Positions 2,729 to 62,213 of a stretch of 64,000 bases of DNA are shown here, piece by piece. Position 1 is the first letter of the stretch; each line of letters begins with the position of its first letter. The notes under the pieces are model-generated. The model was not told the origin of the DNA, ran no database searches, and worked only from the letters and a program-made list of their open reading frames with translations. Made by a program: the position numbers and the translations under genes. The stretch is from Candidatus Ruthenibacterium merdavium (lineage in GTDB: Bacteria > Bacillota > Clostridia > Oscillospirales > Ruminococcaceae), in assembly GCA_019119935.1 (NCBI GenBank), contig DWWA01000007.1, forward strand, positions 1 to 64,000. The letters are read 5' to 3'.

Positions 2729-3983
2729 AAATATTATGCTGGCCATTTCCGGCCTTTGGGCAAATAAAATGCGCGCTTTGCTCACTATGCTGGGCATCAT
2801 CATCGGAATTGGATCGGTCATCGGTATTATGACCGTGGGCGACAGCATGCAAAGCTCGATGACTTCCAACATGCAGAGCATGGGCGCGAGCAATATCACG
2901 GTCAGCTTAACACAAAAGAGCGACTCCGATGTGCGCGAGGGCGGCGCAACGCTGATGTTTCGCCGCCAAAGCTGGTCGGACGAAGACCTTTTAACCGACA
3001 GCATGATTGACGACTATTTGAAGTATTACGGAGATCAGGTAGAGGCAATTGGGCTTTCAGAGTCGCTCGGCTCAAAAAAAATTGAGGAAGACGACAACAT
3101 TACCGTATCCTTAACAGGCGGGAACGCGGCTTATCAGACGGTACAAGACGTTAAAATTCAGCGCGGACGTTTTTTCACCGATGAAGATGTGGAAAATGAG
3201 CGTACCGTAGCGGTTGTAAGCGATGTCTTGTGTGAAAATCTGTTCGGCAGAGTAGATCCGATCGGAAAAACTGTATCTGTCACCGTGGGAACAAAGGTTC
3301 ATACCTTTCATATCATCGGGACTTACGAATATCAAGATATGGGAATTGCATTAGGAAGCACCGACGCAATACCGGAAACGGCGATGTACATTCCCATCAG
3401 CGTTGCAAAAAGCATCAATCATTCCGCAGCGGGTTATTCCAGCTTTACGGTGGTGGGAAAAGCAGACGCAGACGCACAGGCGCTTTTGCAAAACACAAAA
3501 GACTTTTTTGCCAGCTATTATACGAGGAATAATTCTTATACCGCAACGGCTACGAACCTTGAAAGTCTGATGGAAATGATGCAGGAAATGATGGGAACGG
3601 TTTCCTTGGCGATTGCCGTGATTGCGGGGATCAGTTTGCTGGTCGGCGGCATTGGCGTAATGAATATTATGCTTGTTTCAATTACGGAGCGAACGCGTGA
3701 AATTGGTACACGCAAAGCGCTCGGAGCTACCAACAACAGCATTCGCATCCAGTTCATTGTCGAAAGTGTGATTATTTGCCTCATTGGCGGCGTGATCGGT
3801 ATTGCAGTGGGTGCGGGCCTTGGCTCGTTCGGTGCAAACTTGCTGGGATATGCGGCAACACCGAGTATTTCTGCCATTGTGACGGCAGTGAGCTTCAGTA
3901 TGGCAATCGGCGTGTTCTTCGGCTATTATCCGGCGAATAAAGCCGCAAAACTCGACCCGATTGAAGCGCTTCGCTATGAATAA
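2715..3983 (+). CDS. ABC transporter permease, MacB/FtsX family
   Basis: MacB periplasmic core-like domain and C-terminal FtsX-like TM region (GGIGVMNIMLVSITERTREIGTRKALGA); overlaps the upstream ATPase gene. Confidence 0.93.
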   Translation: MLIFENIMLAISGLWANKMRALLTMLGIIIGIGSVIGIMTVGDSMQSSMTSNMQSMGASNITVSLTQKSDSDVREGGATLMFRRQSWSDEDLLTDSMIDDYLKYYGDQVEAIGLSESLGSKKIEEDDNITVSLTGGNAAYQTVQDVKIQRGRFFTDEDVENERTVAVVSDVLCENLFGRVDPIGKTVSVTVGTKVHTFHIIGTYEYQDMGIALGSTDAIPETAMYIPISVAKSINHSAAGYSSFTVVGKADADAQALLQNTKDFFASYYTRNNSYTATATNLESLMEMMQEMMGTVSLAIAVIAGISLLVGGIGVMNIMLVSITERTREIGTRKALGATNNSIRIQFIVESVIICLIGGVIGIAVGAGLGSFGANLLGYAATPSISAIVTAVSFSMAIGVFFGYYPANKAAKLDPIEALRYE

Positions 3984-19670: not shown

Positions 19671-19803
19671 AGGGAAATCCTCCTTTGTTTTATTGTTTCT
19701 GTGCAATCATATTATACCAAACCTTGCCAAATATTGTCAATCTTTGGAAAACCATTTTACAGATTTAACTATTAAATTTCACGAATTATTCAAGTTTTTA
19801 GCC

Positions 19804-26408: not shown

Positions 26409-26840
26409 TTACAGAATTCCTGCGCTGCGGTCCACCGAGGTAGAGAGAATAATTTGACTGGAAGTTGCACCGAATTTTTGAAACCGGTTGATCAGGCTTT
26501 CCAGCTCGGCGATGCCGGAACACGCCACGCATAAAATAAAGCTGTAACTGCCCGTTACATGGTAACAGCGGGCAACGCCGGGCTGGTGGTCTGCCAGCAT
26601 TAAAAATTCCTCGTGGTCGGAGGGAGCAACGCTCACGCTGATGAGCGCTTCAATCTGATGCTCCGTTACTTTGTCGCCGTATACAACGGTATATCCCGCA
26701 ATGATATCTTCGCGCTCCATGCGGCGGATGCGCTCGCTCACGGCAGGGCTGGTGAGCGCCACTTTCTGCGCAATATCTTTCACCGTCATGCGGGCGTTTT
26801 GTGCAAGCAGGTTTAAAATTCTCTTATCAATATCATCCAT
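26409..26840 (-). CDS. Lrp/AsnC-family transcriptional regulator
   Basis: MDDIDKRILNLLAQNARMTVKDIAQKVALTSPAVSERIRRME plus RAM-type C-terminus. Confidence 0.93.
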   Translation of the reverse strand: MDDIDKRILNLLAQNARMTVKDIAQKVALTSPAVSERIRRMEREDIIAGYTVVYGDKVTEHQIEALISVSVAPSDHEEFLMLADHQPGVARCYHVTGSYSFILCVACSGIAELESLINRFQKFGATSSQIILSTSVDRSAGIL

Positions 26841-27003
26841 GGTTTTCCATCTCCTGATTTATAATGCCTTTGTTTTTTAAGTGCTTTTTGCATAAATTTT
26901 TGCTTTATGAAAAATGTGTCGTCATATTTTGTTGCTTTTTAATTATATAAAGTTTTTATGGGGTTGTAAATAAATTTTTTAAAATAAATGTGCTTTTTCT
27001 ACT

Positions 27004-27031
27004 TTGACAGATTAAAAAAAAGGTGTATAAT
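27004..27031 (+). promoter_or_regulatory. Perfect-consensus sigma-A promoter TTGACA-N16-TATAAT
   Basis: TTGACA 27004-27009 and TATAAT 27026-27031. Confidence 0.85.
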
Positions 27032-27037
27032 AATAAG

Positions 27038-27140
27038 CGTCGGAGGAATCCGGCTTCTTAGTTATGCTTACAAGTTTTATTTTTATACTTTCCCACCCCT
27101 CTATGCAAAAGGAGCTGTCGCAAGACGGCTCCTTTTGCTT
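27038..27140 (+). ncRNA. Candidate small regulatory RNA (~100 nt)
   Basis: Promoter immediately upstream; 5' hairpin GTCGGA-GGAA-TCCGGC; CTTTCCCACCCCTCT stretch; terminator at 27107-27136. Confidence 0.5.
27107..27136 (+). terminator. Intrinsic terminator
   Basis: AAAAGGAGCTGTC-GCAA-GACGGCTCCTTTT then GCTTTT. Confidence 0.88.
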
Positions 27141-27208
27141 TTGCTGAAAATATGGTACAATGAAGCGAATAAACCCCGGGCGGGCAGTGATGCCTAAGGA
27201 GTGATGGT

Positions 27209-28030
27209 GTGCAGTGTAGAGGAAAACGGAAGGTTTCGATTTGTTTAGCGGTGTGCACAGTAATTGCCGCCGCGGCAGCGGTATGGCAGTTTGTACAGCA
27301 CAAACCGACACAAGAGCAGTGAACACAAAGCGTGAAGCCTAATGTTGTTTCTCAAAGCGATGCTTCTGCCGGGCAGTCATCAGTATCACTGCCGCAAAGC
27401 ACGTCGAGTTTAGAAAGCGCCGTTTTGATCTCACAGTCATCTGGCGCTCAGCCGCTGCTCGAAGATGGTAAAAATTACGCGATGTATATGCAGTTCGAGT
27501 ACCTTTTTACTTTAATGACGGATTTGTACCGAGAATCGGATCCGGTGATTTACGCAGAGTACCTCCACGATAATGAATGTGTGGTTGATAATGTAGTGCA
27601 GATTATCAGTACCGTGGGTGAGGCGCGTGTCTTACAGGTTTTAAAAGGAAATTGCGAGGAAGAGATTGTTCCTGTGCTGTTTACAGGGGGAACGGTTTCC
27701 TCCGCTCAGTATCTCAGTGCGATGGATGAGGATGCCAAACAGTACAGCGGCATTGAGGAAACGGAATTTTTGGAAACTTATCAAACGGGTACCCTTAAAA
27801 CCGATGAAATGGCGAAGCTTGAGAGCGGAAAATCTTATCTGCTTTTTTTGACTTATGTTAAGGAGTATGACATCTATTCGGTGGCTGGCGGCTGCTACGC
27901 CGCGCGCGAGGTTTCCGAAGACGGAAAGATCTACAGCCCGGAACAGGGCGCATTTGTCACAGACGACACCGGTTTATTTTCCGTGCAGAAAAATGGCGGA
28001 AAACTCCAATTCCCTCCCCCCACAGAATAA
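27209..28030 (+). pseudogene. Hypothetical membrane-anchored protein interrupted by an in-frame TGA at 27320-27322
   Basis: GTG 27209 after AAGGAG; translates V/M-QCRGKRKVSICLAVCTVIAAAAAVWQFVQHKPTQEQ-stop-TQSVKPNVVSQSD, in frame with the 232-aa ORF at 27332. Confidence 0.6.
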
Positions 28031-44835: not shown

Positions 44836-44864
44836 TTGACACGCCCATATAAAGAAGTTATAAT
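44836..44864 (+). promoter_or_regulatory. Perfect-consensus sigma-A promoter for greA (TTGACA-N17-TATAAT)
   Basis: ttgacacgcccatataaagaagttataat. Confidence 0.85.
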
Positions 44865-61862: not shown

Positions 61863-62213
61863 AATAAAACCTCCCTGTGTAAAACCATTCGAAACCGTGT
61901 TCGCAAATTTTTGAGGCTCCGTTCTTTTTTAAAATGCCCCAAAAACGCAAAAAGACACAGCCCGACGCTATTCCAGCAAGCGCAGACTATGCCATATCCT
62001 ACACACGATGCAGTATAACGCGGGAGTTTCGCCGTTATTACTGTCCGCATCTTCCATGATGTTTCCTACACCCCTTTCTCTTTGTGCAAAGCACTATGGC
62101 GCAATTATATCGGAAAATTGCCGACTTGTCAACCAGGGCGAATGCAGTGATTGACGCACGGCAGAATCTTTAGTAAAATACCAAAAGAAACTGAGAAAGA
62201 GAGGGATTTTGTA

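Follow-up and report, generated by a model that had tools for sequence, protein, structure and literature searches.

What is specified by the intergenic DNA at positions 27004-27142 of a 64,000-nt stretch (hereafter, the window) of the genome of Candidatus Ruthenibacterium merdavium? An earlier note on this DNA proposed a small RNA (sRNA), the alternative being a leader or attenuator for the 27209 gene. The reading favoured here, with a probability of about two in three, is a free-standing C-rich sRNA gene, the product of which would act in trans and independently of Hfq, and would be controlled by the neighbouring Lrp-type protein.

Promoter and Predicted Transcript

The locus opens with a sigma-A promoter (27004-27031, + strand), and the exact consensus TTGACA-N16-TATAAT described for it previously was verified. 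The 64-kb window has four perfect consensus promoters, compared to none in 100 dinucleotide shuffles. The other three lie at 19711-19740 (-), preceding an AbrB/SpoVT-like gene, at 44836-44864 (+), preceding a greA-like gene (both genes judged by reading), and at 62104-62132 (-), where about 200 nt without an assigned gene follow.

The predicted sRNA transcript spans 27038-27142 (+) and is about 105 nt long, its start being deduced from the -10 element and its end from the terminator. Its predicted fold (-36.6 kcal/mol; z = -5.3 against shuffles) begins with a short hairpin at the 5' end, continues through an unpaired section and closes with the terminator stem, which bears out the layout proposed in the earlier note (5' hairpin, unpaired C-rich stretch, terminator). 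Two of the details given there need qualification. The 6-bp hairpin with its GGAA loop is present (27039-27054, +) but is lineage-specific rather than a family feature, being variable or absent in homologues, and its stem is missing in many of them, including most of those from Gemmiger. The strong intrinsic terminator is real, but its stem is 15 bp (27105-27138, +) and not 13 bp, and it covaries in homologues. Between these two elements lies the C-rich core, AUACUUUCCCACCCCUCU (27085-27102, +), a putative pairing seed. This core and the terminator are the conserved portion of the locus.

A Clade-Specific sRNA Family

The sRNA had been described as an orphan, but it belongs instead to a clade-wide family whose members are linked to an Lrp/AsnC gene. 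When 61 related genomes were searched at the DNA level, the C-rich stretch and terminator were found in the majority of those from the same genus and also in several further genera of that bacterial family, while the 5' part differed among them. Over 16 aligned loci (alignment A2) the core ATACTTTCCCACCCCTCT is invariant, and 98.7% of the cells of the terminator stem are paired, far above slid controls; 10 of its 15 pairs have changed on both sides, i.e., by compensatory changes.

One genome from each of 84,980 species (257 Gb) was scanned for the exact 18-mer ATACTTTCCCACCCCTCT, which occurred in 96 stretches; the chance expectation is about 7.5, an arithmetic estimate that assumes uniform base composition. 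Among the matches listed are Faecalibacterium, Gemmiger, Fournierella, Anaerofilum, Ruthenibacterium, Pygmaiobacter and Subdoligranulum, and the remaining listed matches within the clade come from unnamed Oscillospiraceae/Clostridia bins. Those listed from outside the clade are one Pseudanabaena and one Paenibacillus record; neither has an adjoining lrp gene, and both are chance matches. A Pygmaiobacter-like locus (L221) carries a core with a one-base deletion inside CCCC. When the order and class were sampled, near-matches outside the family occurred at chance level only, none with promoter and terminator together, and they were rejected for lack of that pair. Weak covariance matches in other genera were also set aside, as they are ordinary terminators with no adjoining lrp. 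No link to phages was found among the phage records or viral contigs searched. The sRNA family is specific to the clade of Faecalibacterium and its relatives within the Ruminococcaceae. The genome of the window falls together with assemblies labelled Ruthenibacterium. Other members of the clade, Faecalibacterium prausnitzii and Gemmiger, belong to the dominant bacteria of the human gut.

Comparison with homologues in related genomes had been suggested as a check on the sRNA call, and in this comparison the promoter and terminator recurred alongside the core at 95 non-redundant loci. The -35 element is TTGACA in 84 and the -10 element TATAAT in 65 of these; all 12 consensus positions are matched in 64, and 89 have a 16-nt spacer. 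The core lies at a variable distance from the transcription start (between about 23 and 95 nt), and the predicted transcript lengths run from 82 to 154 nt (median 106). All homologues have a single C-rich core, CUUUCCCACCCCUCU, and the predicted probability that CCCACCCC is unpaired has a median of 0.985 and exceeds 0.7 at 85 of the 95 loci. The features of the C-rich sRNA class are present, namely an sRNA's own promoter, an intrinsic terminator and an exposed C-rich stretch, and a conserved ORF is absent.

The Divergent Lrp/AsnC Gene

On the other side of the promoter, and divergent from it, is a gene for a transcriptional regulator of the Lrp/AsnC family (26409-26840, -), with Pfam HTH_AsnC-type and AsnC_trans_reg matches and with LrpC (2cfx) as the best PDB sequence match of its product. 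It has a divergent promoter of its own, TTTACA-N17-TATAAT, at 26942-26970 (-). The sRNA was found to be divergent from an Lrp/AsnC-family gene at all 94 testable loci, these being the non-redundant loci for which 450 nt or more of upstream sequence was available. Because the 94 loci had been found through the core, a search anchored on lrp was also run. The sRNA was at the same place in 21 of the 23 loci whose Lrp shares 51% identity or more with that of the window; its core was exact in 19 of the 21, and the other two showed a single A-to-G change in the first position of the core. Of the two loci without the sRNA, one (G108, locus L256; Lrp 59% identical) has kept a degraded promoter and a terminator but has lost the core, so that the sRNA has apparently decayed there. 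None of the seven inspected loci with an Lrp of less than 47% identity carries the sRNA.

The common intergenic region also has A/TAAAG tracts upstream of the sRNA -35 element (about 26944-26990 in the window), at fixed distances of around -56, -37 and -24, which are conserved across genera and partly overlap the divergent lrp promoter. These tracts could be a UP element or Lrp sites. The sRNA is probably co-controlled with Lrp, a view for which adjacency and the conserved A-rich tracts are the basis.

Leader, Attenuator or Peptide Gene

The frame that follows in the window, at 27209-28030 (+), specifies a signal-peptide-like hypothetical protein and is broken in frame by a TGA codon at 27320-27322. 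Since it lies on the same strand as the sRNA and only 70 nt past the terminator, it could be thought that the locus serves this gene in cis, as its leader or attenuator. That alternative is contradicted by synteny in the closest relative (G003), where the sRNA is 99% identical, the 27209 gene is missing, and hflX comes next in the opposite orientation. Across the family the downstream neighbours vary, with hflX (convergent) at many loci and other genes elsewhere, whereas the upstream lrp is constant; no same-strand downstream gene is conserved, nor was an alternative structure seen to be conserved. As judged from these comparisons and from the interrupted frame, it is very unlikely that the locus acts as a leader or attenuator. 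In the window, the 27209 gene is placed between the sRNA and hflX and, as G003 is without it, looks like either a recent insertion at this position or a loss in G003. In Anaerofilum sp. An201 (locus L146), the sRNA core is followed at a distance of about 200 nt by a glycine riboswitch (3425-3518).

The 27-codon ATG ORF starting at 27064, pointed out previously, does exist, and the locus might then be a short-protein gene using this or another frame across the core. We find this hardly credible. An ATG frame extends over the core at only 21 of the 95 homologous loci, and in differing frames, so that no conserved peptide spans it; third-position variation is absent from the core, and the length of the 5' part varies freely. 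What is conserved is the RNA (core and terminator) and not a peptide, and this, together with the promoter and terminator at 95 loci and the failure of the leader alternative, supports the original sRNA call.

Hfq and Potential Targets

A search with the Hfq model found nothing in any of 12 carrier genomes, of which two are complete, but was positive in all five controls, which included E. coli and B. subtilis. Pairing by the sRNA would, therefore, be Hfq-independent.

Searches for targets covered several types of site. In 16 genomes, sites complementary to 14/15 core bases (G-U allowed) occurred at chance level only, and none of them was at a start region. The lrp start region was not distinctive as a target, with a mean duplex energy of -9.4 kcal/mol compared to -8.3 kcal/mol for shuffles. 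In eight genomes, the start patterns GGGGTGGG..ATG and GAGGGGTG..ATG gave 60 sites that were fetched, 37 of them with plausible ORFs, but only one orthologous pair was shared, a WYL-type regulator (L285/L311), in addition to one pair of ABC-ATPase paralogues. Chance can give both pairs, and these short-seed scans produced no convincing target set common to several genera. As no conserved target emerged, the pairing with Shine-Dalgarno regions is something that we infer.

Discussion

The mechanism we propose is as follows. A strong housekeeping promoter would transcribe a short RNA with a variable 5' part, and the terminator would both end this RNA and protect it. The exposed and invariant 18-nt C-rich seed could then pair in trans with several mRNAs at their G-rich ribosome-binding regions and so block translation or hasten decay, without the help of Hfq. 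The neighbouring Lrp-type protein may control the sRNA from the intergenic region that they have in common, in which case the level of the sRNA would be set by an amino-acid or nutrient signal.

Pairing seeds in sRNAs usually tolerate some drift, but here all 18 bases are fixed, and the searches turned up no long mRNA site complementary to them. It could be argued from this that the RNA is real but that its core is a protein-binding site, making it a decoy or scaffold for an RNA-binding protein instead of an antisense RNA, and the failure to find Hfq leaves room for another protein to be involved. Against this, the core is C-rich, exposed and adjoins the terminator, as in C-rich regulatory sRNAs, and the core would be frozen just as well if many targets made use of overlapping parts of it; nor was a candidate protein identified. 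We consider such a protein site unlikely as the core's main function. As to the frozen core itself, both overlapping short targets and protein binding fit, and we favour the former. The extreme conservation within a single intergenic region might also suggest that the stretch is chiefly a DNA element, such as an operator or a replication or recombination site, with the transcript being incidental. This is a distinctly improbable reading, given that the terminator stem directly 3' of the core is maintained by compensatory changes and that a promoter spacing fixed at 16 nt, combined with a core distance of anything between about 23 and 95 nt, is more in keeping with an RNA than with an operator.

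A wider proposal can be offered tentatively, at somewhat less than even odds: that the trans-acting sRNA is a clade-wide, Hfq-independent master riboregulator forming one module with Lrp/AsnC, its core frozen by many short G-rich targets or by one RNA-binding protein, and its field of action being central or amino-acid metabolism. A core of 18 nt that is constant across many genera, with no obvious long target, is unusual. Our literature search found no described trans-acting sRNA for Faecalibacterium prausnitzii or Gemmiger, and the family suggests that some of the commensals most abundant in the human gut possess a regulatory RNA not described before. Such a conserved sRNA, constantly accompanied by Lrp, offers an immediate handle on post-transcriptional control in gut commensals without detected Hfq, and bears on how the sRNAs of Firmicutes function without this protein.

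Relationship to Known sRNAs

Rfam searches of the window gave no family at gathering or permissive thresholds, and none was assigned at the gathering threshold to the sRNA at six homologous loci. The earlier note had likened the C-rich motif to sRNAs of the RsaE/RoxS type. RsaE was not listed in the cmscan of the window, and the RsaE/RoxS model (RF01820) had no match at the sRNA locus in six carrier genomes, all other matches being below the cut-off; the B. subtilis control was positive. In RoxS, C-rich regions pair with Shine-Dalgarno regions and so cover ribosome-binding sites in a Firmicute (PMC4409812, PMC8216469). RoxS also carries a duplication of CCCCUUUGUU (PMC4409812). The sRNA described here resembles RoxS/RsaE of the Bacillales, likewise a Firmicute sRNA that is short and free-standing, has an intrinsic terminator and exposes a C-rich region, but it differs in lacking the CCCCUUUGUU duplication, in having one C-rich core and not four regions, in its Lrp/AsnC neighbour, and in belonging to another bacterial order. 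The comparison holds for the mode of action and not for membership: as the covariance model has no match, the likeness is one of working in a similar way. FsrA and CsfG are further C-rich sRNAs of B. subtilis (PMC8216469), and they share with the present sRNA a C-rich seed and a similar predicted build, but there is no Rfam match to them and no Fur- or sporulation-linked context is evident here. By analogy, the mode of action is most likely RoxS/FsrA-like, with the sRNA not being a member of those families.

The arrangement next to a regulator gene has a counterpart elsewhere. In enterobacteria, the gene of the sRNA GcvB is divergent from that of GcvA, a LysR-type transcription factor of amino-acid metabolism, and GcvB acts via GU-rich seeds with Hfq. 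The likeness is again in how the system works, an sRNA gene being divergent from the gene of an amino-acid-type regulator; here, the partner is of the Lrp/AsnC type, the putative seed is rich in C, and the search for Hfq was negative. No description of an Lrp-linked sRNA was found in the literature, including, by a term search, the main text of structured-RNA surveys. Given that there is no Rfam family, no phage link and no such description, the Lrp-linked sRNA is regarded as a new family of a known kind, the C-rich regulatory sRNAs, its new features being the Lrp/AsnC partner and the host range.
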